From the NCBI RefSeq assembly GCF_016924755.1, contig NZ_JAFFJX010000010.1, positions 124,001 through 188,000 of the forward strand: a stretch of DNA of 64,000 nucleotides, read 5' to 3'. The translations under genes were made by a program, and so were the position numbers. This DNA is from Longitalea arenae. GTDB lineage: Bacteria; Bacteroidota; Bacteroidia; Chitinophagales; Chitinophagaceae. How positions within the stretch are numbered: position 1 is the first letter of the stretch; each line of letters starts with the position of its first letter. Under the pieces are notes generated by a model that was not told the origin of the DNA, ran no database searches, and saw only the letters and a list, made by a program, of their open reading frames with translations. Positions 3,121-63,245 of this stretch are shown in pieces.

Positions 3121-3187
3121 GCGAGTGGCAAGTAGGGCATGGGCTTTACCTGCGGAATTCAAAAAAGTATTTGAACAACCGATACCG

Positions 3188-3256
3188 GCACTTGTAACCC
3201 GTGAACCTGGAACTTGTAACCTGGAACCTGAGACCGGTAACCGGAAACGGTAACTG
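3188..3256. repeat. Spacer word repeat (CTTGTAACCTGGAACCTG family)
   Basis: Tandem variants of the words CTTGTAACC, GAACCTGG and CCGGTAACCGG fill the spacer between the chitinase and the phosphoesterase. The same word family recurs at 17318, 47045 and 48040. Confidence 0.7.
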
Positions 3257-3279
3257 CCTGCCAAACAGAGAACTTGGTG

Positions 3280-3786
3280 CTAAGTAGCAATCGCTCTACC
3301 CCCTAATTCTATCACCTCACAATCTTTCATATTACTTCCATCAATAACAAAGCGGATCAGGGTGCGCACTTTGTGCCAGCCCTGCATTCCTGCTGCGCCG
3401 GGATTTATATGCAGGCATTGCAATTTATCATCGAATATTACCTTCAGAATATGAGAGTGCCCGCAAATGAAAAGCTGGGGCGGATCAGCCGTTAACAGTT
3501 TTTTTACCGCGGGATTGTATTTGGGCGGATAGCCGCCAATATGGATCATGAACACCTTCACCTCTTCGCAGGTAAAGCGTAGTTGCTCAGGATAAACAGT
3601 ACGGATATCCTGCCCGTCGATATTTCCATATACACCTTTCAAAGGCTTGAAAGCAGCCAGTTTGTTAGCCAGTGCGATATTACCGAAATCACCGGCATGC
3701 CAGATCTCATCGCAATTGTCAAAATGTTTGAAAACTGCTTCATCCAGATAACCATGTGTGTCGGAGATCAAGCCTATTCGTTTCAT
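3280..3786 (-). CDS. YfcE/MJ0936-family metallophosphoesterase
   Basis: Small cytoplasmic calcineurin-like phosphodiesterase (168 residues, the usual size for the YfcE family). Metal ligands are visible in order: SDTHG (residues 7-11), GDFGN (about 32), GNID (about 55), and GHSH (about 112), followed by NPGAAG. Members hydrolyse model phosphodiesters in vitro; the physiological substrate is not known from sequence. It lies convergent to the chitinase, and its 3' end is separated from that gene only by a word repeat. Upstream lies the SRPBCC gene on the same strand, separated by another repeat, so co-transcription is possible but not shown. Confidence 0.9.
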   Translation of the reverse strand: MKRIGLISDTHGYLDEAVFKHFDNCDEIWHAGDFGNIALANKLAAFKPLKGVYGNIDGQDIRTVYPEQLRFTCEEVKVFMIHIGGYPPKYNPAVKKLLTADPPQLFICGHSHILKVIFDDKLQCLHINPGAAGMQGWHKVRTLIRFVIDGSNMKDCEVIELGGRAIAT

Positions 3787-3857
3787 AAATGTTGAAATGT
3801 TAACGTAACGGCAGGTAGAGATGGCGGGGCGCTCTGCTCATCAGCTGTGGCATCCGC

Positions 3858-3902
3858 TATTCACCATTGACCATTGACCATTCACCATTGACCATTCACC
3901 AC
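3858..3902. repeat. Spacer word repeat (CCATTGACCATTCACC family)
   Basis: ATTCACC / ATTGACC 7-mers alternate in tandem about six times. The complement of the SRPBCC stop codon (3896-3898) lies inside a repeat word. The same words recur inverted at 42350-42385. Confidence 0.8.
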
Positions 3903-4339
3903 TGCGCTTCTTCTTCTGCCAGTTTTTTGATGCTGTCAAGGGTTTCTGCCCAGTTCTTTTCGGCATGGGCAAACATTACCTGGGATATGATATTGCTTTG
4001 TGTCATTTGTAATAGAACACCACTGCCATCAGGTGTAATGGTAAAGGTGATCACGGAGTAATTCTCCGGGCTGTCTTCCGTAGCGGAGAATACGCTCCAG
4101 TAATTGTAAGATAATGTTTGTTCTTTTTCCAGCGCTAACAAGGTGCCTTTGTCTTTTACCTCTTTGTCCTTATAATTAAAGGTGAATTCAATAGGACTTC
4201 CTATTTGCCAGTCGGTGACCATTTGAACACCCAGCCATTGTTCGATCCATTCGTTATCGGTTAAAACGGTCCATAGTTTCGAAGGGGGAGCATCTATATG
4301 TCTTTCTTTGGTAAGGATCAAATTCTTTTTCATCTGCAT
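3896..4339 (-). CDS. SRPBCC / AHSA1-like domain protein
   Basis: About 147 residues forming a START/Bet v1-type helix-grip fold, recognised from the opening ERHIDAPPSKLWTVLTD, the WLGVQMVTDWQIGSPIEF strand region and a C-terminal amphipathic helix (HAEKNWAETLDSIKKLAEE). Members of this branch (activator of Hsp90 ATPase homologue 1-like) bind hydrophobic ligands; no enzymatic residues can be pointed to. The frame extends to 4411, but the earlier residues are proline-rich and unlike the family, so the ATG at 4339 is preferred (4333 is also possible). Function is unknown. Confidence 0.75.
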   Translation of the reverse strand: MQMKKNLILTKERHIDAPPSKLWTVLTDNEWIEQWLGVQMVTDWQIGSPIEFTFNYKDKEVKDKGTLLALEKEQTLSYNYWSVFSATEDSPENYSVITFTITPDGSGVLLQMTQSNIISQVMFAHAEKNWAETLDSIKKLAEEEAQW

Positions 4340-4599
4340 ATTATTTAGTGGTTCGCCTGGTTCTTCGGGAATCGGGTCGCAAATTACCGGATTTTCCATT
4401 TTGCCCCCCAAATTTCAAAATTGCCTGGTTTAACCGGTATTTATTAACTTTATATCAACGATCATTGCTATGCCATTCTTTCGCAATTTTACATATTGGA
4501 TCGATAAGCGAAGCTGGAAATACGTTTTTCTGCTCAAAACGCTTGAACTTTCCCTATATAGTCCACGTTTCAAATCCTTAGTTACTGCTTGTCTGTAAA

Positions 4600-4660: not shown

Positions 4661-4662
4661 TT

Positions 4663-5820: not shown

Positions 5821-6124
5821 GGCACAATTAGCTGATTTGCTAATGTGCTTATTAGCTAATGAAATAGCTTACTTGAACAAAGGAAGGCCTGGATGATTTA
5901 GGCTTCCATTATTTTAGTTGTTTGTTCAGTAACCGGCTACCAGTTGCGGTTCCAGTCCATGACTAAAAATCGGCCATGAGGTTCGAGTGCGGTTTTGTCA
6001 ACTTCCCGAGGCTTTACCGCTTACACCATAGCTTCAGCGACGGTACATGTAGCAAGCAGTTATGCAGCGTACCGCGTATTCCTTAGCAAATCATCGAATT
6101 AGCACATCAGCAGATTATAAATGA
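5821..6124. other. Spacer with inverted word repeats around a 200-bp unique centre
   Basis: No gene is supported here. Left arm 5826-5875 carries GCTGATTTGCTAATGTGC-type words; right arm 6084-6118 carries the inverted words (TTAGCACATCAGC). The centre holds a hairpin-like GGAAGGCCT/AGGCTTCC (5882-5908) followed by an AT-rich stretch, and about 150 bp in which nothing is recognised. Confidence 0.55.
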
Positions 6125-6158: not shown

Positions 6159-6168
6159 GCAAAAAATG

Positions 6169-17317: not shown

Positions 17318-17425
17318 GCAGGTTTGCAGGGAAAAGCCCTGAAACCTGTAACCTGAAACCTGTAACTTGTAAGCTGAATCCTCCGCCGTGCTATGAACGG
17401 GGAACATGGAACTTTGAACTTAAGT
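17318..17425. repeat. Spacer word repeat (CCTGAAACCTGTAACC family)
   Basis: GTTGCAGGTTTGCAGGG on the left and CCCTGAAACCTGTAACCTG words on the right form an imperfect inverted pair with the loop AAAAG, followed by GGAACATGGAACTTTGAACTT words. Confidence 0.65.
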
Positions 17426-18938: not shown

Positions 18939-18945
18939 TAATAGC

Positions 18946-19020
18946 TCCAAGCTAGAAGCCTTAAGCTGCAAGCCATTTTTAATAATGACTTGTGGCTTGA
19001 AGCTTATAGCTTGAAGCATT
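18946..19020. repeat. Inverted word repeat between rpsM and rpsK
   Basis: Left arm CCAAGCTAGAAGCC, TTAAGCTGCAAGCC; right arm GGCTTGAAGCTTATAGCTTG. They can fold into an imperfect hairpin with loop around ATTTTTAATAATGACTTGT. Confidence 0.7.
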
Positions 19021-19541: not shown

Positions 19542-19547
19542 AGAAAT

Positions 19548-19620
19548 TTCTGATTTTGGATATAGGGATTTCGAGATTTGAATTGTAAATCTCGAAATCC
19601 CAACTCTCGAAATCTAAAAT
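19548..19620. repeat. Perfect 15-bp inverted repeat between rpsK and rpsD
   Basis: GGGATTTCGAGATTT (19565-19579) and AAATCTCGAAATCCC (19587-19601) are exact complements around the 7-nt loop GAATTGT, flanked by further GATTTCTGATTTTGG and CTCGAAATC words. There is no T-run right after the stem, so it does not look like an ordinary terminator. Confidence 0.85.
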
Positions 19621-21440: not shown

Positions 21441-21562
21441 CACAGCTAATGTGATAATTAGCGGATTTGATGATGAATTGCAATTTGTGGTTCCTGCCGG
21501 AGCGCAGGCTTCCCAAACGGCAGCATTATCACAGAAACGAATTATCACATTATCACATTAAA
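21441..21562. repeat. Inverted word repeat between rpoA and rplQ
   Basis: TGTGATAATT (21450-21459) is exactly complementary to AATTATCACA (21540-21549); the right arm repeats ATTATCACATTATCACATTA. The 80-bp centre contains CTGCCGGAGCGCAGG-type GC-rich sequence. Confidence 0.8.
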
Positions 21563-23509: not shown

Positions 23510-23932
23510 ATGAAAATAGCTATCATTAACGGTCCTAACCTGAACCTGCTGGGAAAGCGGGAGCCTGGCATTTATGGCAGTACTTCCTTTGAAGATTACC
23601 TGGTAACGCTGAAAAGTAAATATCCCCAGGTAGAGATCCTCTATTACCAAAGTAATGTGGAAGGGGAGCTGATCAATGAATTGCAACGGGTTGGCTTCGA
23701 TTATGATGGCATTATTATGAATCCCGGCGGTTATACCCACACTTCTGTAGCTATTGGCGACGCTATCGCCAGTATAAAGACCCCGGTGGTAGAAGTACAT
23801 ATCTCCAATGTACATGCAAGGGAAGAGTTCCGTAAATTAAGCCATGTTTCGGGTAAATCGGCCGGTAGCATCATTGGGCTGGGGCTGAAGGGCTATGAGC
23901 TGGCTCTACAATATCTCATCGACCGGAAGTGA
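23510..23932 (+). CDS. aroQ: Type II 3-dehydroquinate dehydratase
   Basis: 140-residue dodecameric enzyme of the shikimate pathway converting 3-dehydroquinate to 3-dehydroshikimate. Hallmarks: INGPNLNLLGKREPGIYG (with the mobile-loop Arg and catalytic Tyr), YYQSNVEGELINELQ, MNPGGYTHTSVAIGDA and VEVHISNVHAREEFR with the catalytic His. It lies 14 bp after the carA terminator, so its promoter must overlap that region or the terminator is partial. Confidence 0.97.
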   Translation: MKIAIINGPNLNLLGKREPGIYGSTSFEDYLVTLKSKYPQVEILYYQSNVEGELINELQRVGFDYDGIIMNPGGYTHTSVAIGDAIASIKTPVVEVHISNVHAREEFRKLSHVSGKSAGSIIGLGLKGYELALQYLIDRK

Positions 23933-24070
23933 TTTCTGATTTCTGATTTCGGGATTTCTGATTTTGGGATTTCTGATTTCGGGATTTTGAGATTTTCGGA
24001 TTTCCGGACTTATCAGCGTGTTCAAATCTGAGCAAATCCCCAGATCTCGCAATCCCGAAACCAGAAATAT
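23932..24070. repeat. Spacer word repeat (GATTTCTGATTTCGGGATTT family)
   Basis: The word GATTTC(T/G)G is repeated about nine times on the left; CAATCCCGAAACCAGAAAT words stand inverted on the right (24040-24068). It starts directly at the aroQ stop codon. Confidence 0.85.
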
Positions 24071-24191: not shown

Positions 24192-24845
24192 ATGCGAACG
24201 ATATTCATTGTGGTCCTGCTGGGGTTTTCGGTTTGCAGTTTTGCCCAATGGAAGGACTATAAACTTACCTCTAAAGGCGATACCCTGAACCGGATCGATA
24301 AGATCGGCCGGAAATGGGGCCCCTGGAAGCACCATTATGACAATGTACGGGGCGAACCCGGCTATGAAGAAGAGGGCTGGTATGAAAAGGACCGTAAAGA
24401 GGGTGAATGGCGCCTGTATTCGCTTATGGGCGACCTGGTAGGCATCGAGTATTATAAATGGGGTTTGAAGGACAGCATCTGCCGTTATTTTACCAAGGAT
24501 GGAGCCTTAAGGCTTGAACAAAGCTGGCGTGCTTTGAACCCCGATAAGGAATATGATACCCTCGAAATTGAAGATCCCGACAAATTTGATACTTACCGCA
24601 CGGTGATCGTTAAGAACGAAGGCGCCGCTATTAAACACGGCATCTGGAAATATTATGATCCGGTGAGCGGGCGGGTTATTCGCTCTGAAATGTACACCCT
24701 GGGAAAACTGGAACAGGAAGCCAAGAGCGAACCGGTAACCACCGAAAAGAAACCGGTAGCCAAACCAAAAGAAGTTGTGGAGTTTGAAAAGAAGAATGCC
24801 GGGAAAAAGAAAGTGAGGTATAAAGATGGAACGACCGGAGGTTAA
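24192..24845 (+). CDS. Exported MORN-repeat-like protein
   Basis: 217 residues: signal peptide (RTIFIVVLLGFSVCSFAQ), then a region with MORN/YwqK-like strands (GWYEKDRKEGEWRLYSLMGD, GIEYYKWGLKDSICRYFTKDG, HGIWKYYDPVSGRVIRSEMY), and a low-complexity Lys/Glu/Pro/Val tail of about 45 residues. MORN-like beta-hairpins are often found in exported or antitoxin-like YwqK proteins; here the signal peptide favours a cell-envelope role. No catalytic residues are seen. The frame is open upstream to 24126, but ATG 24192 begins the signal peptide. Confidence 0.75.
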   Translation: MRTIFIVVLLGFSVCSFAQWKDYKLTSKGDTLNRIDKIGRKWGPWKHHYDNVRGEPGYEEEGWYEKDRKEGEWRLYSLMGDLVGIEYYKWGLKDSICRYFTKDGALRLEQSWRALNPDKEYDTLEIEDPDKFDTYRTVIVKNEGAAIKHGIWKYYDPVSGRVIRSEMYTLGKLEQEAKSEPVTTEKKPVAKPKEVVEFEKKNAGKKKVRYKDGTTGG

Positions 24846-24846
24846 T

Positions 24847-24990
24847 TAGCTAATTTGCTGATGTGCTAATATGCCAATGAAATACAATTTTAAAAAAAAG
24901 CCCCGCCAAAAACATTTGGCGGGGCCTTTTTATACAGTGATGCTTTTAGAAATTCATCAGCACATAAGCTAATCAGCAAATCAGCACATT
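24847..24990. repeat. Inverted word repeat enclosing a terminator
   Basis: Left arm 24847-24884 (AATTAGCTAATTTGCTGATG, TGCTAATATGCC, GAAATACAATTTT) and right arm 24947-24990 (AAATTCATCAGCACATAAGC, AATCAGCAAATCAGCACATT) are inverted relative to each other around the terminator at 24893-24931. Confidence 0.8.
24893..24931. terminator. Bidirectional terminator between convergent genes
   Basis: GCCCCGCCAAA (24900-24910) pairs with TTTGGCGGGGC (24915-24925), with an A-run before and a T-run after. Confidence 0.92.
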
Positions 24991-26872
24991 AGTTTTTGGT
25001 GAAACGGCTGATCACCGTAATGGAGCCGGCCTGTGCTTTCAGGATATAAACGCCTTTTCCAAGTGTGCTTACATCTATAGAGGTATTGAGGGCGTTACCA
25101 TCAGAAGCAAGATTGTTCCGCCTGATCACTCGTCCGTTCATATCGATGATCTGTAAGCCGATAGAACCGTTCATGCCCTGGGGCAGCTGCACCTGTAACA
25201 TGTCTTTTACCGGGTTGGGGAATACCTGCAGGCTGCTGCCCGACTCACCGCCAAATTTAACGATGAGCGTTTTGCTGTAGGATTGTTTGCCATCAATATC
25301 CTGCATCAACAAACGGTAATAATTATTGCCAGACAAAATCGGCGACTGATCTGCAAATGAATAGTTCTTAGCTGTAATGCTATTACCTGCAGCGGCTACC
25401 TGGCCGATGGCTTTATAGGTCTTACCATCGCTGCTGCGCTCAATAACAAACTGCTTCACATTTTCTTCGCTCGACGTCTGCCACAGCAATACTACTTTGT
25501 TGCTTTGTTTTTGTGCATAGAAGTTCGACAACACCAGGGGCAGGGGCGTACCGTCGTTTTGGAAGGCAGCCACTAAAAAATCGCTGGGCGCTCCTGGTCC
25601 GGTACCACCCGCCAGATAAATGCGGTTGCCATACAACTTTACAGCGTAACCGAACTCTTCGTCAGTGCCGAGATCAGCAGTAACTATGCCGTCGCCATCG
25701 AAAGTGGCGGCATCCAGGCTGCCATTCGCGTTATAGCGTAACAACAAAAGCCTGAAATCAGCACTTATAGGTTCCAAACTGCCGCCGATAATTATTTTAC
25801 CATCGCTTTGCAATGCGATGGAGCGACCGTCTTCATCTGAATTCACGGTGCCCGGTGCAAAGTCGAATATTATTATTCCATCATTATCACCATCGCCATT
25901 AAAGCTGGCATCAGGGATACCTGTGGTGGTCAAACGAACGGTAGCAATATCATTGTTGGTCACCGCAACAGCTTTGGATTCTCCGGTCATCACCAGTTTC
26001 CCATCGGGTTGTAAAGCAATGGCATTGCTTTCGTCGTTGGAACCGGCAACACCACCATTGGCGATATCTATAATCGCAATACCGCTGGTACCATAACCAT
26101 TGTCAAGTGTTCCGTCTGTATTATACCGTACGGCCGTATAGTTGCCGTTGGCGCCTATATTACTGGTGCCACCTGCAATGATCTTTCCATCCTGTTGTAC
26201 TACTACGCCTGTTGCCTGGTCATTGCCACTGATAGCGGTTGTTACGATACCACCGGTGCCAAAACCGCCGTCGGGATTTCCGTTTGCATCGTATCGTACT
26301 ACTGCAAAATCATTGTTCGTTCCGTTGTGACTGAAGCCTGCCACTATGATCTTACCATCACTTTGAACGGTTATGGCCCTGGCTTCATCATGTCCGCTGC
26401 CAATGGGTGTTAATACCCATCCACCCGTACCAAAGCCGGCATCAGGCGTACCGTTTGGCTGTAGTTTCAGGAGGGCAAAATCCCTGGTAGCGTCATAGGA
26501 GAAGCCTGCTACCAGGATGGAGTTATCACTTAAAACAGTTATTGCAAAGGGAACTGCATTATTCTGTGCACCGGCATCTTCTCTTAAATGAACGATACCA
26601 CCGGTGCCAAAAGAAGCATCGAGTGAACCATCAGGCAAATAGCGTACAATGGTCATGTATTCATCGGTGGTATACGTAGCTACCACAATTCGTCCGTCAT
26701 TATGCGTACCAATAGCCTGGCCATAATCGCTATTGGCAGGAACTATATTGTTTATGACATAACCAGGCGTTCCGGCTGGCGCGGGATTGAACGTGGGGTC
26801 CAGGGCTCCAACCTGGGCGCTTAGGTACAGGCATAGAAATAACGCTGTAAGAGTAGAGGTAACCTTCTTCAT
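24989..26872 (-). CDS. Delta-60 repeat protein with T9SS type A sorting domain
   Basis: 627-residue secreted protein. Signal peptide ending YLSAQ; then about six delta-60 repeats of 55-65 residues each (pattern DGKIIVAGFSHNG...FAVVRYDANGNPDGGFGTGGIV) predicted to form a beta-propeller-like structure over residues 20-440; then a short fibronectin-like stretch (NKVVLLWQTSSEENVKQFVI) and a C-terminal T9SS sorting domain of about 85 residues (VFPNPVKDMLQVQL, GVYILKAQAGSITVISRFTK). The sorting domain sends it through the type IX system to the cell surface or medium. Ligand unknown. The unusual feature is its regular length and repeat number, not any missing part. Confidence 0.9.
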   Translation of the reverse strand: MKKVTSTLTALFLCLYLSAQVGALDPTFNPAPAGTPGYVINNIVPANSDYGQAIGTHNDGRIVVATYTTDEYMTIVRYLPDGSLDASFGTGGIVHLREDAGAQNNAVPFAITVLSDNSILVAGFSYDATRDFALLKLQPNGTPDAGFGTGGWVLTPIGSGHDEARAITVQSDGKIIVAGFSHNGTNNDFAVVRYDANGNPDGGFGTGGIVTTAISGNDQATGVVVQQDGKIIAGGTSNIGANGNYTAVRYNTDGTLDNGYGTSGIAIIDIANGGVAGSNDESNAIALQPDGKLVMTGESKAVAVTNNDIATVRLTTTGIPDASFNGDGDNDGIIIFDFAPGTVNSDEDGRSIALQSDGKIIIGGSLEPISADFRLLLLRYNANGSLDAATFDGDGIVTADLGTDEEFGYAVKLYGNRIYLAGGTGPGAPSDFLVAAFQNDGTPLPLVLSNFYAQKQSNKVVLLWQTSSEENVKQFVIERSSDGKTYKAIGQVAAAGNSITAKNYSFADQSPILSGNNYYRLLMQDIDGKQSYSKTLIVKFGGESGSSLQVFPNPVKDMLQVQLPQGMNGSIGLQIIDMNGRVIRRNNLASDGNALNTSIDVSTLGKGVYILKAQAGSITVISRFTKN

Positions 26873-41161: not shown

Positions 41162-42349
41162 ATGAACCAACTAACTGCAGTCAAGAAGCGGGTGCAATCC
41201 ATTGACATCCTGCGCGGCATTGTAATGATCATTATGGCCCTCGATCATGTGCGCGACTATTTTCATTTAGATGCATTTCAAAATGACCCGCTTAATCCTG
41301 CTACAACGACACCCATTTTATATTTTACCCGCTGGATCACACATTTTTGTGCACCTACATTTGTCTTTCTAGCCGGAACTTCGGCTTACCTCATAGGAAC
41401 AAGGAAAAGCAAAGCCGACCTGAGCAGTTTTCTGATAAAACGCGGCTTCTGGCTTGTGCTAATAGAAGTGGTTATAATAACCCTGGGCTGGACCTTCAAT
41501 CCTTTTTATAATACCATAATCCTTCAGGTAATATGGACCATCGGTATTAGTATGGTATTTCTTGGCCTGGCTGTGCGTTTACCCTACTGGGTTATTTTTA
41601 CGGTAGGGGCCTTGATCGTATTCGGGCATAATATACTTGACTATCCCGAGGCCGCCCGTAAAAATGATGTTGGCTTCTTATGGGACTTACTGCACAACGG
41701 TCGTTTTGATACCTATACCTATGCCCCGGGCCGGATCCTGATCATTGCCTATGCCTTTCTTCCCTGGCTGGGTATTATGCTGATGGGTTATTGTGCAGGC
41801 AGATTATTTGAACCGATCGTAGATGCGGGACAGCGGCAAAAGAAATTGCTGCTGATTGGGCTGGCATTGATTGCTGCATTTGTGGTGCTGCGGTTAATGA
41901 ACAATTATGGCGATCCTTTTCCCTGGACGGAGCAGCCAACCGGTTTAGGCAGTTTTCTCGCGTTCATGAACGTACAAAAGTATCCGCCTTCATTGATGTA
42001 TACCTGTATTACCATAGGCCCTGCACTGATTATGCTGGCCCTGCTGGAAAATGTGCAGAACCGGTTTACCGGATGGGTGAAAGTATTTGGCCGGGTGCCT
42101 TTCTTCTATTACGTAGCACATATTTACCTGATACACCTGGCAACGGTTATTGCGTTCTATATCGAGGGATATGGAAAAAAGGATATTGTAGGGCCAACCC
42201 CTTTTCTGTTCAGGCCGGTGCAGTTTGGTTATGATCTGTTGACGGTTTATATCCTGTGGGTGCTGCTTATTTTGCTGTTATATCCTTTATGCCGCTGGTA
42301 TAATAACTACAAGAGTACACACACGCAATGGTGGTTGAGCTATTTGTAA
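41162..42349 (+). CDS. DUF1624 / HGSNAT-like integral membrane protein
   Basis: 395 residues with about ten membrane helices. The N-terminal signature RVQSIDILRGIVMIIMALDH followed by VRDYFH matches the DUF1624 / heparan-alpha-glucosaminide acetyltransferase catalytic domain, the His being the presumed acetyl-transfer residue. Related bacterial proteins are predicted sugar O- or N-acetyltransferases or of unknown function. No partner genes are adjacent. Confidence 0.85.
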   Translation: MNQLTAVKKRVQSIDILRGIVMIIMALDHVRDYFHLDAFQNDPLNPATTTPILYFTRWITHFCAPTFVFLAGTSAYLIGTRKSKADLSSFLIKRGFWLVLIEVVIITLGWTFNPFYNTIILQVIWTIGISMVFLGLAVRLPYWVIFTVGALIVFGHNILDYPEAARKNDVGFLWDLLHNGRFDTYTYAPGRILIIAYAFLPWLGIMLMGYCAGRLFEPIVDAGQRQKKLLLIGLALIAAFVVLRLMNNYGDPFPWTEQPTGLGSFLAFMNVQKYPPSLMYTCITIGPALIMLALLENVQNRFTGWVKVFGRVPFFYYVAHIYLIHLATVIAFYIEGYGKKDIVGPTPFLFRPVQFGYDLLTVYILWVLLILLLYPLCRWYNNYKSTHTQWWLSYL

Positions 42350-42478
42350 TGGTCAATGGTGAATGGTGAATGGTCAATGGCTTTGAAATGTTTACAATTT
42401 TCGGTTATGACCGGTAACTGGTAACCGGTAACTGTATATCATTATCACATTATCGAATCATCACATTATCACATTATT
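42350..42478. repeat. Spacer word repeat: three word types in tandem
   Basis: CAATGGTGAATGG words (42350-42380), GGTAACTGGTAACCGGTAAC (42412-42432) and TCATTATCACATTATCGAATC, then TCACATTATCACATTATTTC (to 42478). The mutS stop codon complement (42474-42476) lies inside the last word. Confidence 0.85.
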
Positions 42479-45174: not shown

Positions 45175-45350
45175 CTCGATTTCTGATTTCTGATTTCGAG
45201 ATTGCGAGATTTGCTCAATATGGCAATCTCCAATTTATTCTAAATCTCAAAATCTCAAAATCCCCAAATCTCAAAATCCCCAAATCCCAAAATCCCCAAA
45301 TCGCCGAAATCTCAAAATCGCGCAATCCCGCAATCCAACATCTTCCCTCT
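45175..45350. repeat. Long inverted word repeat between mutS and trmH-like gene
   Basis: Left arm CGATTTCTGATTTCTGATTTC, GAGATTGCGAGATT (45178-45212); right arm AAATCTCAAAATC(C)CC units repeated about nine times (45243-45342). The arms are inverted relative to each other. Confidence 0.9.
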
Positions 45351-47044: not shown

Positions 47045-47550
47045 ATCGCAGGTTACAGGATACAAGTTACAGGTTACAGGGTGCAGGAAAATTCAGTTAC
47101 CGGTTACCGGTTTCCTGTCACCGGGCAAATTAAAATTATATTAGGTACAGGTTACATGTTACAGGTTATAAGGTACAGGAAAATTCAGTTACCGGTTACC
47201 GGTTTCCTGTCACCGGGTACAAATCAAAAGCATATTAATCAGGTACAGGTTACATGTTACAGGTTACAGGGTGCAGGAAAATTCAGTTACCGGTTACCGG
47301 TTTCCTGTCACCGGGCACAAATCAAAGGCATATTAATCAGGTACAGGTTACATGTTACAGGTTACAGGGTGCAGGAAAATTCAGTTACCGGTTACCGGTT
47401 TCCTGTCACCGGGCACAAATCAAAAGCATATTAATCAGGTACCCGTTACATGTTACAGGGTACAGGATACAAGTTACAAGTTACAGGAAGCAGGGATCTG
47501 GGAAGAGATGCCCTGGAACCTGAAACCTGAAACCTGGAACTGCCAGTTAT
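47045..47550. repeat. 98-bp tandem repeat array within a CAGGTTACAGG word field
   Basis: A unit containing GTGCAGGAAAATTCAGTTAC, CGGTTACCGG, TTTCCTGTCACCGGG starts at 47084, 47176, 47274 and 47372, intervals 92, 98 and 98 bp. Within each unit CAGGAAA and TTTCCTG are inverted around CCGGTTACCGG (for example 47274-47307). The edges dissolve into shorter words (CAAGTTACAGGTTACAGG; CCTGAAACCTGAAACCTGG). Open frames through it read as repetitive peptide and are not genes. The array fills the whole 535-bp gap between ubiA and ruvX. Confidence 0.95.
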
Positions 47551-48039: not shown

Positions 48040-48215
48040 ATAGCCATTACAGGTTACAATTGTCAGGTTACGGGGAAAAGCGTACCCTGTACAGCTAAAA
48101 AGGTAAGCAGCCGGTTGCCGTAATTTAGGCAAATGAGCTTTGTACTCTGAAACTTGAAACCTGTAACTAGTAAACCGGCAACTGATAACCGGTAACAGGC
48201 AACAGCCTTCAGCCA
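48040..48215. repeat. Spacer word repeat (TTACAGGTTACAATTG / CTTGAAACCTGTAAC)
   Basis: Left words CATTACAGGTTACAATTGTC, AGGTTACGGGG; right words GAAACTTGAAACCTGTAAC, TAGTAAACCGGC, GATAACCGGTAACAGGC. Left and right are inverted relatives. Confidence 0.75.
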
Positions 48216-49799: not shown

Positions 49800-49942
49800 G
49801 TATTGAATGTGATAATTTGATAATTCGATAATGTGATAAATGGAATACAATTTCCTGTTCGGTTCAAGGACTTTATAATGTTATCGGCACTCCCGAAAGC
49901 GAATTAATCAGCACATTAGCACATTAGCAAATTAGCCAATCA
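49800..49942. repeat. Spacer word repeat with two inverted families
   Basis: Left: TGATAATTTGATAATTCGATAATGTGATAA and linker GGAATACAATTT; right: CAGCACATTAGCACATTAGC, AAATTAGCCAATC, inverted relative to the C-type words elsewhere. Confidence 0.8.
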
Positions 49943-51046
49943 TTACATTATAGATCTCGTCTTGGCATAGCCCCTCCACTTTTCGAACAACTGCTGCATA
50001 TCCTCTGGCATTTCGCTGTTGAATACAACTTCCTTGCGCGTACGCGGATGAATAAAACCGATCGTTTTGGCGTGTAAGGCATGCCGTGGGCAAATGGCAA
50101 AACAATTATCAACGAACTGTTTGTATTTGCTGAAAACAGTTCCTTTTACAATTCTGTCGCCCCCGTATAATTCATCATTGAAGAGGGGATGGCCCAGGTG
50201 TTTCATATGCACGCGGATCTGGTGGGTGCGGCCTGTTTCCAGCTCACATTGAATAATGGTCACATAACCCAGTCGTTCCAGTACTTTGTAATGGGTAACT
50301 GCATCTTTACCATAATCACCATCCGGGTAGGCGTCGAATATTTTGCGAAAGCGCTGGTGGCGGCCGATATGGGCCCGAACGGTGCCGCTGTCTTCGGCAA
50401 CATCGCCCCAGACCATGGCCACATACTGGCGGTGAATGGTATGATCGAAGAATTCTTTGGCGAGGCAGGTCACCGCTTTTTCGGTTTTTGCCAGCACCAT
50501 TAAACCACTGGTATTTTTATCGATGCGATGCACCAGGCCGAAGCGGGGCAGGGTATCGGCAGAGATATCGCTGTTCTGCTGCTGTAAATGCCAGGCAACG
50601 CCATTGATGAGCGTACCGCGTGGATTGCCGCTGGCAGGATGCACGACCAGTCCCACCGGTTTATTGATGATCAGGATATCAGTGTCCTCGTAAACGATAT
50701 TCAAAGGCATTTGTTCCGGGATGATCTCTTCGCCATGCATTTCCTTATCGGAATACACGATAATCTCTTCGCCCGGCTTTATTTTGTGATTCGCCTGTAC
50801 GGTTTTACCGTTCACCGTAACGCGGCCGGTTTCAATGGACTGCTGCACTTTATTACGGGAGGCGCCCTCTATACGGGCCACCAGGAATTTATCGAGGCGC
50901 ATAGGTTCCTGGCCTTTATCTACCACCAGACTGAATCGTTCATACAGCTCCTCGGCGCCTTCTGCGCCATCTGCGCTTTCTGCGCCTTCTACACCATCAA
51001 AATTTTCGTCCTGCTCATTAAAAGTGTTGGCATCCTTTATAGTCAT
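49943..51046 (-). CDS. rluD: RluD-type ribosomal large-subunit pseudouridine synthase
   Basis: 367 residues. A glutamate/alanine/glycine-rich N-terminal tract (EGAESADGAEGAEE), an S4 RNA-binding domain (about 48-105; MRLDKFLVARIEGASRNKVQ), then the pseudouridine synthase domain with IINKPVGLVVHPASGN and the catalytic Asp in LVHRIDKNTSG (about 170-180) and ETGRTHQIRVHMKHLGHP. RluD modifies helix 69 of 23S rRNA in other bacteria; assignment within RluA/C/D is by similarity. A TACCTTTG -7 box (51073-51066) lies 20 bp upstream. Confidence 0.92.
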   Translation of the reverse strand: MTIKDANTFNEQDENFDGVEGAESADGAEGAEELYERFSLVVDKGQEPMRLDKFLVARIEGASRNKVQQSIETGRVTVNGKTVQANHKIKPGEEIIVYSDKEMHGEEIIPEQMPLNIVYEDTDILIINKPVGLVVHPASGNPRGTLINGVAWHLQQQNSDISADTLPRFGLVHRIDKNTSGLMVLAKTEKAVTCLAKEFFDHTIHRQYVAMVWGDVAEDSGTVRAHIGRHQRFRKIFDAYPDGDYGKDAVTHYKVLERLGYVTIIQCELETGRTHQIRVHMKHLGHPLFNDELYGGDRIVKGTVFSKYKQFVDNCFAICPRHALHAKTIGFIHPRTRKEVVFNSEMPEDMQQLFEKWRGYAKTRSIM

Positions 51047-51115: not shown

Positions 51116-51901
51116 ATGAAAACCAGTACAAAACAGGGGGTTTTATTTCGTGATCTTGGTCAGGTCGGGTACCAGGAGGCCTGGGACCTGCAGGAAAGCC
51201 TGTTACAGGAGAATGTGCGTATCAAAACCGAATACCGGAGCAGGATGGCCCTGATGGAATCGGCTTCCGCTTATAAACAACCGGCTACGGGTTATGGGCA
51301 GGAAGTGATTGATAATGAGATGAATGGGCCGGAAACCACCCACCACTTACTTTTTGTGGAGCATCCGCCGGTGTATACGCTGGGAAAAAGCGGCGATCTT
51401 GAAAATGTACTGATCAGCGAGGAAGAAAGAGTGGCCAAAGGGATCAGTTTTTACCATACCAACCGCGGCGGCGACATTACTTTTCATGGCAGAGAGCAAC
51501 TGGTGGGTTATCCCATACTCGACCTGGAAAGATTCTATACAGATATAGGCAAATACCTGCGGAACCTGGAAGAAGTGATCATTGCCACCATAGCCGATTA
51601 TGGCTTGAAAGGGGAACGGTCGCCCGGGGAAACCGGGGTTTGGCTCGATGCGGCCATACCGGGTAAAGAGCGAAAGATCTGTGCCATGGGTATACGCTGC
51701 AGCCGCTGGATCACCATGCATGGCTTTGCCTTCAATGTAAATACCGATCTGTCTTACTTCAATTATATCATTCCCTGCGGTATCCAGAACAAACAGGTGA
51801 CTTCGATGCAGAAGGAACTGGGGCGTAAACTCGATATGCGTGAGGTGAAGGAAAGAGTGAAAGCGAATTTTGAGAAAGTGTTTGACGTAGAATTAATTTG
51901 A
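51116..51901 (+). CDS. lipB: Lipoyl(octanoyl) transferase
   Basis: Transfers octanoate from acyl carrier protein to lipoyl domains, first step of lipoic acid synthesis. 261 residues, slightly longer than E. coli LipB. Motifs: EHPPVYTLGKSGDLENVL, NRGGDITFHGREQLVGYPI and GIRCSRWITMHGFAFNVNTD with the conserved Lys/Cys equivalents near CGIQNKQVTSM. The N-terminal 30 residues (TKQGVLFRDLGQVGYQEAWD) are the usual family start. Confidence 0.95.
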   Translation: MKTSTKQGVLFRDLGQVGYQEAWDLQESLLQENVRIKTEYRSRMALMESASAYKQPATGYGQEVIDNEMNGPETTHHLLFVEHPPVYTLGKSGDLENVLISEEERVAKGISFYHTNRGGDITFHGREQLVGYPILDLERFYTDIGKYLRNLEEVIIATIADYGLKGERSPGETGVWLDAAIPGKERKICAMGIRCSRWITMHGFAFNVNTDLSYFNYIIPCGIQNKQVTSMQKELGRKLDMREVKERVKANFEKVFDVELI

Positions 51902-52022
51902 TGATTGGATAATTTGATAATGGAATACAGTCCGAAGAAAAGTGGACATAAGTTACGGGTTTGAAGGAACTGCTAAAATTGAAGCATTATCACATTATCA
52001 AATTATCACATTATCACATTTG
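51900..52022. repeat. Inverted word repeat after lipB
   Basis: Left GATGATTGGATAATTTGATAAT, right TTGAAGCATTATCACATTAT, CAAATTATCACATTATCAC. The string AAATTGAAGCATTATCACATTATCA also occurs at 63198-63222. Confidence 0.85.
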
Positions 52023-54973: not shown

Positions 54974-55060
54974 TATATGTTTCCGGCGCATTGCTTTTTG
55001 TTATAGGTTTTGGCTCTTTGCCTTTATGCCTTGTGCCTTTCCTTGTTGCCTATGTGCCTT

Positions 55061-56155
55061 TTAATAAGATTTCACCATGAATACCGCATCTTCAATTTTC
55101 TTGATCTGCTGTACCCGGTCCATATTCCTGATAGACGAATTCAGCGTCAAGCGGATATTTTCGTAGGTAGAATCTTTTTTGATCTCTTCAACACTGCGGA
55201 AGATGTTTTTGGCTGTAAGGGCGAATACCACGCCTTCAGCAGCTTTCTGCCGGGCATTGATAATACCGATCACTTCACCGCTTTTATTGAATACCGGACC
55301 GCCCGAGTTACCGGGGTTGGCCGATACGCCGATCTGGAAGGAGAGGGTATCGCCATTATAACCGGTTTTGGCGCTCATATATCCTTCATTGTATACGATC
55401 TCTTCGCGGGGATAGCCCAGGGTGAACAGTTGTTCACCGAGCTCGGTACCACCTTTGCGGATGCCATAGGGCAGGGGGCCGATGCTTCTGTAATCTGCAT
55501 CTTCTATTTTGATGAAGGCCAGGTCGGTTGCAGGATTGGTATAAATTATACGCGATCTGAATTCCTGTCCTTTACTATTTTGTACTACTACGGTAGAGGA
55601 ACCATTTACCACGTGCGCGTTGGTAACAATGATTCCCTTGCCATCGACGAGGAAACCGGTTCCGCCATATTTGACCGGTGTATTTTCCGGTGCTTTGGTG
55701 GTGCGGGCCTGCATGGTATTGATCACCTCGTTGGCTTTTTGGGCAACTTCCCGTTTCACTTCCCTTCTCAATCTTTCAATGTCGGCGCCGGTCTTCTTTT
55801 GTGAATAGTAAGTAGCCATACCCGCAATAAGCAGGGTAGTAACGCCTGCAATGGAAGCGGCAACCGCCATGACCCGTTTGTATTTTCTCCACATCTGGAT
55901 AACGGTGGCTTTGGGGGCTTCCTGGGTAATATCGCCTGATTCGAGCAATTGGGTATGTACGTCGTTCAGGGTTGATTTGAAGTTCTTCCAGTCAGCGAAC
56001 TGGTCGATCTGCTGTAAAAACATGGTGTGCTCTACTACTTTTTCATCCACTTCCGGATTACTTTTTCGCAGCTGCTCAAAAGAAGCCATTTCTTCGGGTG
56101 ACATTTCGCCGCGAAGAAAGCGCTCGATTGCATCCAATAATTGTAGCTCTTGCAT
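55061..56155 (-). CDS. Anti-sigma-like / trypsin-like serine protease fusion, membrane-anchored
   Basis: 364 residues. Region 1 (about 1-80) is a short helical domain reading QELQLLDAIERFLRGEMSPE, EMASFEQLRKSNPEVDEKVV, like the N-terminal domain of anti-sigma factors; then a transmembrane helix (about 97-117); a coiled-coil stalk (DIERLRREVKREVAQKANEV); then a periplasmic chymotrypsin-fold protease with His in TNAHVV (about 184), Asp in PATDLAFIKI (about 215) and Ser in GNSGGPVF (about 293). No PDZ domain. The start is ATG 56155, which shares one base with the TGA stop of the sigma gene, so translation is coupled. By order and overlap it likely controls that sigma factor; whether its protease acts on itself is unknown. 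Confidence 0.85.
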   Translation of the reverse strand: MQELQLLDAIERFLRGEMSPEEMASFEQLRKSNPEVDEKVVEHTMFLQQIDQFADWKNFKSTLNDVHTQLLESGDITQEAPKATVIQMWRKYKRVMAVAASIAGVTTLLIAGMATYYSQKKTGADIERLRREVKREVAQKANEVINTMQARTTKAPENTPVKYGGTGFLVDGKGIIVTNAHVVNGSSTVVVQNSKGQEFRSRIIYTNPATDLAFIKIEDADYRSIGPLPYGIRKGGTELGEQLFTLGYPREEIVYNEGYMSAKTGYNGDTLSFQIGVSANPGNSGGPVFNKSGEVIGIINARQKAAEGVVFALTAKNIFRSVEEIKKDSTYENIRLTLNSSIRNMDRVQQIKKIEDAVFMVKSY

Positions 56156-56727: not shown

Positions 56728-56935
56728 GCTAGAACATTAATTAATACCCAAATTAAATAGAAGTAACCCATCCCGGCTGTAAAATTCACGCCAAAAAGGG
56801 CCAAAAACGCCCTTAGCCCGAAAGGTTGAACTTTTTTTTAAGAAAAAATAAAAAATCTTGGGGTGACGAGGTTACCTTTTGCCGGATTCTGTATTAAACT
56901 TCAAATTCATTTGTTAACAAACAAAAAACGGTACA

Positions 56936-57145
56936 ATGAAAAAACTGTTGTTAGTTTTAGCTATTGGTTCTTTATTCGCTGTAGCTTGTAATGATGGCGG
57001 AAGCGCCGAAGCAGAAAAAACTGCTGATACAGCATCTACTACTCCTACAGTAGATACTGCTGCTGCTCCTGCTCCTACTGTTGATACTGCAGCTGCTGCT
57101 ACAGTTGATACAACTAAGAAAGCAGACACTACAAAAAAGAAATAA
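56936..57145 (+). CDS. Small Asp/Thr/Ala-rich lipoprotein
   Basis: 69 residues: signal peptide with lipobox AVAC (Cys18), then a low-complexity mature part with repeated PTVDTAAA, VDTTKKADTTKKK. No fold is predicted; the composition suggests an unstructured tether. It is divergent from the sigma factor gene with a 208-bp AT-rich spacer; a functional link is possible but not shown. Confidence 0.7.
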   Translation: MKKLLLVLAIGSLFAVACNDGGSAEAEKTADTASTTPTVDTAAAPAPTVDTAAAATVDTTKKADTTKKK

Positions 57146-57176
57146 GTTTTTTTTCATATGGCAAGCAATCGTTAGA

Positions 57177-57200
57177 GGCCGTCCTGATCTCAGGATGGCC
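57177..57200 (+). terminator. Hairpin after the small lipoprotein
   Basis: GGCCGTCCTG (57177-57186) pairs with CAGGATGGCC (57191-57200), one G-T pair, loop ATCT. No clear T-run follows, so it may be a stabilising hairpin rather than a terminator. Confidence 0.5.
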
Positions 57201-57320
57201 CTTTGTGATAAGCCATACGAATTTAAGCCCTTCTGCCCAGCCGGTGGAAGGGTTTACTTTTACCCCCCGGCCCCATAAACGGGAGAAACAACACTCCGGA
57301 ACATCACCGCACGGCCCGGC

Positions 57321-57710
57321 TTTAACGATTCAAAAACAGCACTGATCGTTCAAAAACAGCTTCCAGGAATGCAACAAACAGCACCTGGTTTTGAACGATG
57401 GAATCGGACCTTTCAATAAACCGGTGTTATTCATTGAAAACGCAGTGGCTGGTTGTTGAAAAATGCGTTCTATCCGTTGAACGAACAAGGTCTGTGTATT
57501 TAACAAACCATACTTGTGTATTCAACAAACAGGATCTGTTTATGCAATAAACTGCTCTATGCTTTCAATGATCCATACCGGTTTGTTCAATGAATGGGTC
57601 CCTGCCTTTCAATAAACCATACCAGGTTGTTAAATAAACCGGTCTTGTTTATGCAACAAACTGGTACTGTTTATTGAACAAACTGTTCTTGTTTGTTCAA
57701 TAATTTTGAG
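57321..57710. repeat. Degenerate 22-bp tandem array, about 18 units
   Basis: Unit consensus about TTTRTTCAACAAACYGGTMCTG. Clear 22-bp units: TGTATTTAACAAACCATACT (57495), TGTATTCAACAAACAGGATC (57517), TTTATGCAACAAACTGGTAC (57648), TTTATTGAACAAACTGTTCT (57670); others vary from 20 to 24 bp (starts 57321, 57345, 57368, 57389, 57409, 57430, 57453, 57473, 57539, 57562, 57582, 57605, 57627, 57692). Left units are more diverged. No open frame of note runs through it, and no spacers as in CRISPR. Confidence 0.85.
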
Positions 57711-57810
57711 TGCAAATCATTCATTTTCATACCTGATCATAGTTAAGTTCCTCTCACCCATAACACTTTCAAATATGGCCCGCCCGGCCCCTTTCAGCAG
57801 GCGAAAGGGC

Positions 57811-57846
57811 ATAAAAAAAGGCTACCCGCCAGCGGCGGAAAGCCTT
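57811..57846 (-). terminator. Terminator of the 44-residue lipoprotein gene
   Basis: On the minus strand AAGGCT/AGCCTT (57846-57841 with 57824-57819) plus CCGCC/GGCGG (57838-57834 with 57830-57826) form the stem, followed by a T-run complementary to 57819-57813. Confidence 0.85.
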
Positions 57847-57872
57847 CTTGATAATATCAGGGTTAAACTAAT

Positions 57873-58007
57873 TTAACGATGGCCATATCCAATATACCCT
57901 TGCGTTCCCTTACATCCTGTGCCCCTGGCCCCTTTTGAAGCCGCGCATGAGGTAATAGCTGCGCTGGCTAAAATAACCATAGCTACGATAACGATTGTCC
58001 GTTTCAT
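57873..58007 (-). CDS. 44-residue lipoprotein
   Basis: Translates as MKRTIVIVAMVILASAAITS followed by Cys21, then a short tail ending KGTQGYIGYGHR. Lipobox AITSC (cysteine at 21). The tail with Gly/Cys/Tyr is like small lipoproteins of Chitinophagaceae of unknown function. It has a good terminator 27 bp downstream and is too short for usual ORF cut-offs. It lies between the 22-bp array and mpl. Confidence 0.65.
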   Translation of the reverse strand: MKRTIVIVAMVILASAAITSCAASKGARGTGCKGTQGYIGYGHR

Positions 58008-58207
58008 TTTTGTGATATTTAATTGATGTTAACAATTGCCTGATGAATACAAGGGTAGAACGATCATCAGGTTCATTCAAAGGTTAAACGGACTTAAGGG
58101 AAGGAAAATTCGGTCGGATTGGATAGTAGAATGACCAAAATAACAAATAATATCCCGCTTGTGCAAGCCTTGTTTACAAAAAATATTCAGGTGTATATAA
58201 AAAGTTT

Positions 58208-58237
58208 TTGGTAATCGTTCCACCTTAAATACATTTA
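58208..58237 (+). promoter_or_regulatory. Promoter of mpl
   Basis: TTG (58208-58210), 19-bp spacer, TACATTTA (58230-58237, one mismatch to TAnnTTTG), 58 bp before the ATG at 58296. Confidence 0.6.
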
Positions 58238-58295
58238 GCCGTAAATCCGTTGCATGAAACCTTCGTCCCGCTTACGGGATAGTAAATAATATCAG

Positions 58296-60684: not shown

Positions 60685-60762
60685 TTAAATGCAAATGTGT
60701 AATTTATATAATTGCACAATTTGAATTATTGTATTTTCGTACTCCAATATCAATTGAATTGT

Positions 60763-61566: not shown

Positions 61567-61692
61567 CATTGGTACTCATAATAAGCATTGTGCCATCGGC
61601 GATCCGCAGATGGCACAATTTATTTTTACAGATGCCAGCCATTGCCCGCCACCCTTTTTATTTCAATATCTTCATGTTATCGTCTTTATCCC

Positions 61693-62565
61693 ATGCGTAA
61701 AGCATTTTTACAATTGCACATGGCCGTTTTCCTGGCCGGATTTACCGGTGTGCTCGGCAGGCTGATCACCCTGAATGAAGCGCTGTTGGTATGGTATCGC
61801 TTATTGATCACAGTACTTACCCTGTGGGTGATATATTTATTTAAAAGAGATGTGTACCGCATTTCGTGGAAGGGCATAAGCCGGATCACCGGTGTGGGCA
61901 TGATCGTAGCCTTGCATTGGGTGAGCTTTTATGCCAGTATCAAGTATGCGAATGTATCTGTAGCGCTGGTATGCTTCTCGGCCATTGGTTTTTTCACAGC
62001 CATCCTCGAACCGCTGATCACGCGCAAACCATTCAATAAAACCGAATTGCTGCTGGGGCTGCTGGTGATCGCCGGCATTTACCTGATCTTTCATTTCGAC
62101 CCTCATTATAAAAAGGGCATCATCCTGGGCCTGATCTCAGCATTGCTGGCCAGCCTCTTCCCGGTATTTAATCGCTTATTGGTGCAGGATCATAAACCCG
62201 AAACGGTAACCCTCTACCAGTTAAGTGGCGGTTTTCTCTTCCTGAGCCTTTTGCTGCCCATCTACCTTTCTTTTGTGCCGGCCGGTCATCTGGTACCCAC
62301 TCTGGCCGATACCGGCTGGCTACTGGTACTGGCCTGGTTTTGCACGGTGTGGGCATTTAATTTATCTATGAATGCGCTGAAAAAGATTTCTGCTTTTACC
62401 GTAAATCTCACCTACAACCTGGAACCCCTCTATGGCATCGTCCTGGCGTTTATACTTTTCCGGGAAGACAAATACCTCTCCGGCTCATTTTATGTCGGAT
62501 TGTTATTGATTGTATTGTCGGTATTCCTGCAAACCTGGCTGATCTATAAAAAAAGAAGGCAATAG
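61693..62565 (+). CDS. EamA/DMT-family transporter
   Basis: 290 residues with ten predicted membrane helices in two repeats (about 1-135 and 145-285), typical of the drug/metabolite transporter family (RhaT/EamA). Contains LHWVSFYASIKYANVSVALV and the second-half NLTYNLEPLYGIVLAFILFR. The substrate is unknown. ATG 61693 (MRKAFLQLHMAVFLAGF) is preferred to 61588. Confidence 0.9.
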   Translation: MRKAFLQLHMAVFLAGFTGVLGRLITLNEALLVWYRLLITVLTLWVIYLFKRDVYRISWKGISRITGVGMIVALHWVSFYASIKYANVSVALVCFSAIGFFTAILEPLITRKPFNKTELLLGLLVIAGIYLIFHFDPHYKKGIILGLISALLASLFPVFNRLLVQDHKPETVTLYQLSGGFLFLSLLLPIYLSFVPAGHLVPTLADTGWLLVLAWFCTVWAFNLSMNALKKISAFTVNLTYNLEPLYGIVLAFILFREDKYLSGSFYVGLLLIVLSVFLQTWLIYKKRRQ

Positions 62566-62640
62566 ACAACTGGCAATTGAAAACAGGCAACCGGCAATAA
62601 ACGGCAACGGGCACGACAGGCGACCAGCAAGCAACGGTAT
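62566..62640. repeat. Spacer word repeat (GGCAATTGAAAACAGGCAACCGGCAATAAACGG)
   Basis: GGCAA(T/C) words repeated about six times, with CCAGCTTGCCTGTC-type sequence inverted on the right (to 62655). Confidence 0.6.
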
Positions 62641-62679
62641 TACCAGCTTGCCTGTCAAACCAGAAAAATTGTATAGCAC

Positions 62680-63132
62680 ATGAAAAAGGCATGTTACATT
62701 TTGTTTGTTTTTGTAATATCTGCATTGGTTGCCTGCGACAAAGACAATAAAGGCCAGGACGACCGCGGAACAAGGGATTTGCAGGGAGGCTGGGCATTGA
62801 GGGAGAGATCTGCAGCAATGGGACCCATCATAACATATAACAGTGGAACAGAGCATATACTCACGTTCCGGGAAAATAAATACTACATCTATGAAAGCGG
62901 TGAAAAGATAGCGGAAGGAACTTATACCACAATGATAGACACTACGGTTGAGCAAAATGTTTGTCTCGTTGGCCTTGCTTCTGACTTTAACAGGCGCATT
63001 GTATTTGATAACGATCTTTCGTCGCCCAAAATATTCTTTTATGTAAATAAAGACGAGCTCATTACCATCTCCGGCTGTTATGCGATCGATGCCGGCCAGA
63101 AAAAGATCTATGGGCGTTTACGCAGTTTATAA
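62680..63132 (+). CDS. Lipoprotein, lipocalin-like beta-barrel
   Basis: 150 residues: signal peptide and lipobox LVAC (Cys19), acidic linker, then a beta-rich domain (LQGGWALRERSAAMGPIITY, HILTFRENKYYIYESGEKIA, EGTYTTMIDTTVEQNV, SPKIFFYVNKDELITISGCY) of the lipocalin-like or DUF-type 100-residue barrel often found in Bacteroidota. Function unknown. Confidence 0.75.
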   Translation: MKKACYILFVFVISALVACDKDNKGQDDRGTRDLQGGWALRERSAAMGPIITYNSGTEHILTFRENKYYIYESGEKIAEGTYTTMIDTTVEQNVCLVGLASDFNRRIVFDNDLSSPKIFFYVNKDELITISGCYAIDAGQKKIYGRLRSL

Positions 63133-63134
63133 TA

Positions 63135-63245
63135 CCAATGTGATCATTAGCTAATTTTATAATACACACGGAAATCTGCCATTGCCCGGTCATTATAAAA
63201 TTGAAGCATTATCACATTATCACATTGTGACTTTATCACATTTTT
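63135..63245. repeat. Inverted word repeat after the lipoprotein
   Basis: Left: GTGATCATTAGCTAATTTTAT; right: AAAATTGAAGCATTATCACA, TTATCACATTGTGACTTTATC. Right-hand words recur at 51978. Confidence 0.8.

Follow-up and report, generated by a model that had tools for sequence, protein, structure and literature searches.

Short words repeated head to tail have been described in several bacteria, and the available extracts of those accounts give the closest counterparts of the word arrays reported here from 64,000 nucleotides of Longitalea arenae (assembly GCF_016924755.1, contig NZ_JAFFJX010000010.1, positions 124,001 to 188,000 of the forward strand; hereafter the window). In Xanthomonas, GGGAATC heptamers (GGGGA(C/T)T in Nostoc/Anabaena) form mostly intergenic arrays with fixed and free positions (GGGANTN) and inverted convergent pairs, with 70 and 75 cases, few inverted pairs being found in Nostoc; they are commoner between convergent than divergent genes, are generally unlinked to mobile elements, and mostly keep their position between sister species (83%) (Rehm et al., 2015; PMC4692102). 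The P6b stem of the Nostoc trnL group I intron is built of degenerate 7-nt words of two classes, Class I (TDNGATT) and Class II (NNTGAGT), and one class has repeatedly been replaced by the other at the same site (Kaasalainen et al., 2015; PMC4476775). TAACTGA repeats form intergenic heptamer arrays, a few of them in Bacteroidetes with other heptamers alongside; they are direct repeats that, in the main genome described, mostly precede start codons at short distance (169 direct sets, one indirect) (MacGregor, 2015; PMC4679880). A GTAG or CGTC tag marks one end of most repetitive extragenic palindromes (REPs) (PMC3733652). The spacers studied here hold tandem words of 7 or 8 bp, often as two inverted arms around a centre (word hairpins). 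We consider it about an even call that these are intergenic word-hairpin satellites, self-renewing arrays that arise and turn over at the DNA level and persist where they are harmless.

The genome comprises 7.28 Mb in 40 contigs, and its genes were called with a hexamer model, so that spacer borders are approximate. Matches of RuvX and RpoA assign it to Niastella (Chitinophagaceae), and a cyanobacterial source, at first suspected from the heptamers, was rejected. Periodicity and inversion were measured over 864 kb, made up of the window (contig C40, 124001-188000) and positions 1-400k of contigs C11 and C22. Exact self-match runs of at least 10 occurred at lag 7 with 1.18/kb in intergenic sequence, 0.017/kb in coding sequence and 0.000 in five dinucleotide shuffles, and at lag 8 with 1.04/kb, 0.003/kb and 0.004, respectively, and other lags (3-6 and 9-13) reached at most 0.04/kb in spacers; an earlier note on this DNA, which held that the words avoid coding sequence, is borne out. 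Of 510 spacers between 60 and 800 bp, 72 had an ungapped inverted pair scoring at least 13, some being ordinary short-loop stems, compared with a mean of 1.6 over 10 shuffles, so the note's concern that shuffled spacers might match the real ones did not materialize. Under strict rules, 18 of the 48 window spacers of 40-800 bp hold a lag-7/8 tract (12) or a word hairpin (14), with shuffle means for these counts of 0.17 (60 shuffles) and 0.20 (15 shuffles). Degenerate words below the thresholds were also recognized, with Tandem Repeats Finder (TRF) or by eye, in spacers 3121, 10884, 17315, 45923, 54899, and 62566. The inverted short-word arrays claimed by the note are thus real, in fewer spacers than its figure of more than 25. 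Among its examples, AAATTGAAGCATTATCACATTATCA does lie at 51976 and 63198; GCTGATTTGCTAAT, placed at 5826, 24850, and 35220, occurs at 5831, 35220, and 35278 with a near variant at 24850; and GTAACCGGTAAC, placed at 42424 and 48199, lies at 42421, with its complement at 47096, 47188, 47286, and 47384 and no exact copy at 48199. Genome-wide, GTAACCGGTAAC has 197 occurrences and its reversed control 10. The units of the window are 7 or 8 bp long and run head to tail, and the long identical repeats with regular unique spacers typical of clustered regularly interspaced short palindromic repeats (CRISPR) were not seen there; word-hairpin arms in general lack a constant foot, in agreement with the note's view that the arrays resemble neither CRISPR nor REPs.

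The main word families are A (NGMTRATN, 8 bp), B (GATTTNNN or GATTTNN), C (RGTTNCN, 7 bp), D (GGTSAAT), E (AAGCNNN), and H (TGAGTNN), plus smaller ones; both period-7 and period-8 families occur, and the four largest combine fixed and free positions within their tandem words. A list of 13 families assigned 137 of the 170 word hairpins of this genome and five sisters, leaving 33 unassigned, and the usual orientation of the family was kept in 135 of the 137 (A 33:0, B 28:1, C 28:0, E 16:1) and opposite in two. Both the families and the reference orientation of each were defined by hand on the left arms observed, so that little can be concluded from the small ones; families A, B, C, and E account for 107 of the 137. 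Label-free counting of shared 9-mers within this genome gave 336 hairpin pairs in which the orientation agrees and 72 in which it is opposite, and near-palindromic words head the second group. A universal G/T-first rule was rejected, as the inward strand holds less than 0.45 G+T in 34 of the 170 hairpins; orientation is fixed per family only. Three-frame stop codons are likewise not a general purpose, with stops in all frames in only 17 of 99 left and 7 of 99 right arms. The hairpin centre is often unrelated to the words. Spacer 24846 has a terminator-like hairpin there, and its homologues also have a terminator-like centre, inside family A arms in genomes G007 and OAS944 (G002) and inside arms of other words in Niastella koreensis. 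As a genus-level detail, 23 of 276 Niastella arms (6.6-fold) have AATACA immediately inward of the arm, compared with 0 of 68 arms in loci L104-L178.

Among spacers of 40-800 bp, word hairpins occupy 50 of 131 convergent, 99 of 542 tandem, and 19 of 136 divergent ones, compared with three in one shuffle of the whole spacer set. Hugging of the upstream stop codon is a result for tandem spacers, where the median relative offset from that stop is 0.13 (88 hairpins with room to move, Kolmogorov-Smirnov (KS) p 3e-16); elements of convergent spacers, measured from the stop of the left gene, have a median relative offset of 0.77 (n = 27, KS p 0.001) and so stand nearer the right gene. In tandem and convergent spacers together, 88 of 150 left arms start no more than 15 nt from the stop codon and 26 of 150 overlap it.

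The octamer pattern ATTAKCACATTAKCAC has 99 copies in this genome, 92 in G007, 85 in OAS944, 74 in N. populi (G006), and 37 in N. koreensis (G005), with lower numbers in N. caeni (G003, 14), N. vici (G001, four), and G004 (one) and none in G008 and N. yeongjuensis (G009); one of 29 genomes of other genera had it (two copies), and the reversed control was zero throughout. G004 and N. yeongjuensis hold hairpins of other words, five and four in 40 kb. At 80 rpoA loci of Chitinophagaceae and relatives, five named Niastella included, 51 had at least one word-hairpin match, 110 in total compared with two in one shuffle, several of the matches being AT-rich or ordinary stems. Twenty-kb stretches from other genera and families had at least one match in 6 of 19 cases and none in 13, which indicates a patchy spread. 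Tandem GATTTNN triples were present in 40 of 148 Bacteroidota genomes, the reversed control being equally high in some genomes and zero in others (G230, G242, G264, and G310).

Homologous spacers of sister species are often empty or hold another family. In the spacer after rpoA, family A is shared by the window species, G007, N. koreensis, N. populi, and OAS944, whereas N. caeni has family B, N. yeongjuensis uses other words, and N. vici and several related genera have no array. Across 406 genome pairs of conserved-neighbour spacers, drawn from up to six genomes with a hairpin in at least one, 59 had words in common, 64 had different words, 176 were present on one side and absent on the other, and 107 were absent on both, at loose thresholds (score 11, period 0.45) that also let through a small number of stems not built of words (22126, 39192, and 61567 among them). 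Words were therefore in common in 59 of the 299 pairs in which one or both sides have a hairpin, and 64 of the 123 pairs with a hairpin on both had no 9-mer of arm sequence in common. In an rpoA tree, N. vici stands beside N. populi (support 0.973) inside array-bearing lineages (0.913 with the window species and G007), so that either N. vici lost arrays at its empty sites or the other species gained them repeatedly. Fixed word positions in the four families differ in 1-12% of comparisons between homologous arrays, except for one family E position (32%) and the family C purine (17%), while free positions differ in 18-56% and non-arm spacer sequence in 15-19%; every pair entered these counts twice, once in each direction, related pairs lack independence, and the word pattern decided which side served as reference. 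Similarity also extends between distant spacers, as the note had claimed, with 727 similar pairs over 145 of 552 spacers and none in shuffles, and some of the common stretches include non-word sequence, for example a 98-bp unit.

A stem kept for its fold in RNA tolerates G-U but not A-C when viewed on the transcribed strand. The 99 word hairpins of tandem spacers have a GT:AC count of 134:140 (GT fraction 0.49, bootstrap 0.42-0.55), whereas in the same data short-loop hairpins have 61:17 (fraction 0.78, bootstrap 0.65-0.91, p 6e-7) and other hairpins 87:43 (p 1e-4), and this GT excess indicates that the wobble test works. When tandem spacers were stratified by loop, no loop class of word hairpins departed significantly from one half GT; strong words with loops up to 15 nt lean to GT (18:9 in eight hairpins, p 0.12). 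Since the word hairpins lack the bias seen in short-loop ones, their arms are not generally kept as RNA stems, and we conclude that the pairing is mostly generated and renewed at the DNA level and only occasionally used as RNA.

The same test bears on the proposal that the arrays are functional 3'-end elements, namely, terminators, stabilizers, or Rho/RNase barriers folded in the transcript at gene ends, which is unlikely on present evidence despite the position of the arrays next to stop codons and their higher frequency between convergent genes. Loops exceed 40 nt in 47 of the 99 tandem word hairpins, TTTTT follows within 12 nt downstream in 7 of the 99 compared with 14 of 48 short-loop hairpins, the arrays are absent or replaced at many homologous sites and occur in divergent spacers as well, and the terminator-like hairpin at 24891-24934 is itself enclosed in the centre of an array. 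In favour of this proposal is the stem at 18944-19017, present in 8 of 8 Niastella compared (with other words in G007) at a GT:AC count of 29:10; the neighbouring hairpin has 13:7 and the rpoA-rplQ hairpin 6:7. Judging from its conservation and strand bias, this stem has possibly been taken over as an RNA element in its operon, which we take from the gene order to be a ribosomal protein operon. As a general reason for the arrays, the transcript ends or stabilizers suggested by the earlier note are unsupported, given the missing wobble bias, the few T runs, and the family switching and absence in sister species; they suit this one conserved hairpin.

The satellite reading brings together what was observed: periods of 7 and 8, intergenic sites, fixed orientation within families, many families, presence and absence, replacement, sharing between spacers, and no RNA-strand bias. 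Words would be gained and lost through replication slippage and template switching inside the hairpin, and existing words could seed other spacers by short ectopic copying, either gene conversion or template switching between similar hairpins. Selection might mainly clear copies from promoters, leaders, and coding sequence, which would leave arrays beside stop codons and between convergent genes, and a few fixed hairpins such as that at 18944-19017 may have become RNA structures. Template switching had already been proposed in the earlier note; it fits the strand-symmetric evolution, but the arms are alike in vocabulary more than in mirrored word order, and alone it cannot explain words common to distant spacers. 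Exact mirror copying of arms is a weak candidate, as word-order shuffles retain most of the pairing score (19.0 observed and 17.2 shuffled over 102 hairpins).

Several observations weigh against the satellite reading. The stem at 18944-19017 is conserved and strand-biased, and the observed word order pairs somewhat better than the shuffled order, scoring higher in 79 of the 102 hairpins, although the score is inflated because arms were selected by it. Equal-length coding chunks also gave 123 similar pairs, the chunks possibly coming from the same gene. The clean empty sites of N. vici imply tidy loss or repeated gain and are poorly explained by simple slippage, and no enzyme or recombination junction was seen in this analysis. 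Fixed orientation and a conserved word core are unexpected for a purely neutral satellite; these two features are the least well explained, and they keep binding sites and word writing under consideration.

Protein binding-site arrays, in which the fixed core would be a recognition motif and the inversion would join two arms for insulation or chromosome folding, are also unlikely. Fixed positions diverge less and free positions more than the spacer background, orientation hardly varies, and the arms are alike in vocabulary more than in exact order, all of which would suit a bound motif, but some 13 families call for an equal number of proteins or for a single, very permissive protein, and different families stand at the same site in different species.

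Non-autonomous palindromes moved by an HUH transposase, comparable with REPs and their associated tyrosine transposases (RAYTs), are quite unlikely, even with the clean empty sites of N. vici and several related genera in their favour. Each Niastella genome has one TnpA gene of the IS200/IS605 type (here at C40:99265-99693, that is, L183:4265-4693), on the same contig as ruvX in eight of them, and in 8 of the 9 Niastella examined (seven by detector, one by eye; G008 was left out) a period-7 word hairpin occupies the spacer upstream of it. This link failed its control outside the genus, where a recount found a word hairpin in 1 of 14 TnpA-upstream spacers compared with 9 of 24 other spacers of the same loci; an earlier count including two Niastella loci gave 3 of 16 and 11 of 27, with 7 of 30 loci lacking a gene call. 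Nor does Y1 gene copy number track word density in the genomes compared, and no constant foot accompanies the stems, GTAG lying within 8 nt outside 6 of 340 arms and CGTC outside none, with AT-rich 4-mers the commonest. A TnpA/RAYT link is disfavoured on these counts, and of the note's suggestion that an element spreads the words, the strong similarity between spacers stands while no enzyme was found for it. A second type of Y1 gene is present in several Niastella.

A dedicated word-writing enzyme (short-template, telomerase-like, or terminal-transferase-like) extending DNA ends at gene 3' ends would suit the strict period of 7 or 8, the fixed orientation, the degenerate words, and the use of one family in both arms, but it is very improbable, with no candidate gene and with a terminator-like centre kept between replaced arms at 24846, which misfits simple break-and-extend.

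The arrays of the window are collected in Table 1. The spacer of the tract at 17338 has related arrays in G007, N. caeni, N. koreensis, and OAS944 and none in N. vici, and all 8 Niastella compared have a stem at the 19546 site, three of them in a short form. The repeated unit at 47049 combines family C words with other sequence, and a similar unit lies at C22:322509-323360. The N. vici counterpart of the spacer at 49806 measures about 2 bp. At spacer 51902, by our reading of the sequence, the upstream gene would take its stop codon from the first words of the array in the window species, G007, and OAS944; the corresponding two convergent genes of N. vici have overlapping stops. The identified genes of the window, among them those for aconitase, RNA polymerase alpha, MutS, RuvX, and lipoyl ligase, are of ordinary chromosomal kinds, and the window holds no tRNA and no Rfam match at gathering score. 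The gap at 56728-58295 contains clustered imperfect inverted and direct copies of the short motif TTCAATAAACC / GTTTATGCAAC at 57412-57700 and a small lipoprotein-like Ala/Thr-rich open reading frame (ORF) at 56936-57145. Words of type GCAAAGACGC / TTTGTGCC, found in L194 of G022 and at 55016-55061 of the window, presumably resemble dispersed repeats of other Bacteroidetes genomes.

Table 1. Word arrays and hairpins of the window, with positions counted from its first nucleotide.
Feature	Position	Strand	Basis
Family D tract (closing words ATTGACC/ATTCACC), period 7	3859-3901		TRF, lag-7 tract
Family A opening arm, partner 6079-6111	5831-5863	+	Inverted pair score 15.5, loop 215
Family A closing arm, partner 5831-5863	6079-6111	-	Inverted pair
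Family C tract CCTGTAA/CCTGAAA, period 7	17338-17382		TRF
Family E hairpin (AAGCTNN words), loop 6	18944-19017		Inverted pair, eight-species comparison
Family B hairpin (GATTTNN(N) words), loop 7	19546-19620		Inverted-repeat detection
Family A hairpin, spacer after rpoA	21447-21552		Inverted repeat
Family B array and hairpin, arms 23969-24003 / 24034-24068	23930-24068		TRF, inverted repeat
Family A hairpin bracketing convergent spacer, arms reaching both gene ends	24843-24991		Inverted repeat; terminator-like hairpin in centre
Family A array with 66-bp repeat, arms 35199-35233 / 35332-35366	35150-35366		TRF, inverted repeat
Family B tract GATTTTGG	36139-36205		TRF
Family D opening tract AATGGTC/AATGGTG	42348-42380	+	TRF, lag-7 tract
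Composite spacer: family C closing words, then family A closing words	42413-42477		TRF, by eye
Family B hairpin/array GATTTCT ... AAATCCC	45178-45329		TRF, inverted pair
Family C array, 98-bp composite unit, about 4.3 copies at 47049-47466	47049-47540		TRF
Family C hairpin, arms 48047-48071 / 48142-48166	48047-48166		Inverted repeat
Family A hairpin, convergent spacer	49806-49949		Inverted pair
Family A hairpin	51895-52020		Inverted repeat
Family A hairpin, 25-mer at 63198 in common with 51976	63137-63218		Inverted repeat, word match

A good share of Niastella gene gaps, for instance the 50 of 131 convergent ones, consists of fast-changing word hairpins whose family varies by species, which suggests that non-coding DNA turns over here in a fast and poorly understood way. 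The conserved gene order of Niastella genomes makes gain, loss, and replacement directly measurable. Word arrays can also mislead terminator prediction, assembly, and strain comparison. It is quite improbable that a dedicated system of Bacteroidota, perhaps also of other phyla given the similar Nostoc words, writes degenerate oriented words at gene 3' ends with a vocabulary that changes between species; if so, gene gaps would carry a rapidly rewritten, lineage-specific code read by some factor.

No description of such arrays in Niastella or Chitinophagaceae was found in the open-licence literature by title and the start of the abstract. As far as the available parts of the accounts go, the present arrays are like the Xanthomonas heptamers in having inverted pairs, a place close to stop codons, words made of fixed and free positions, and convergent pairs near ORF ends; they differ in having about 13 families with periods of 7 and 8 and in having no arm with four G3 or C3 tracts among 340, unlike the G-rich, potentially G-quadruplex arrays of Xanthomonas, and the 59 of 299 pairs with words in common contrast with the 83% positional conservation there, although the measures differ and the thresholds here are loose (PMC4692102). 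Nostoc Class I words rotate to GATTTDN, which is close to family B, although that family also allows C at D, and Class II words equal TGAGTNN, that is, family H, as found in OAS944 at the 35145 site; P6b, as described in the extracts available, is a single cyanobacterial intron stem of two word classes that folds as RNA within a ribozyme, whereas the present words occupy many intergenic sites in Bacteroidota with no general RNA-pairing signal (PMC4476775). Unlike TAACTGA repeats, as far as the partial account shows, the present words form hairpin arms (PMC4679880). REPs and bacterial interspersed mosaic elements (BIMEs) with RAYTs are, like the present arrays, intergenic palindromes in many copies, but the latter have tandem words, no fixed foot, and no transposase link outside the genus. 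The findings join the Xanthomonas heptamers, the Nostoc intron stem, and the TAACTGA repeats into one testable phenomenon. With the Xanthomonas/Nostoc heptamers and the Nostoc P6b stem as precedents, the arrays are of a not wholly new sort; set beside these accounts in their available form, what is new is that a single genome has many families, that families switch at numerous homologous spacers, and that a strand test was applied.

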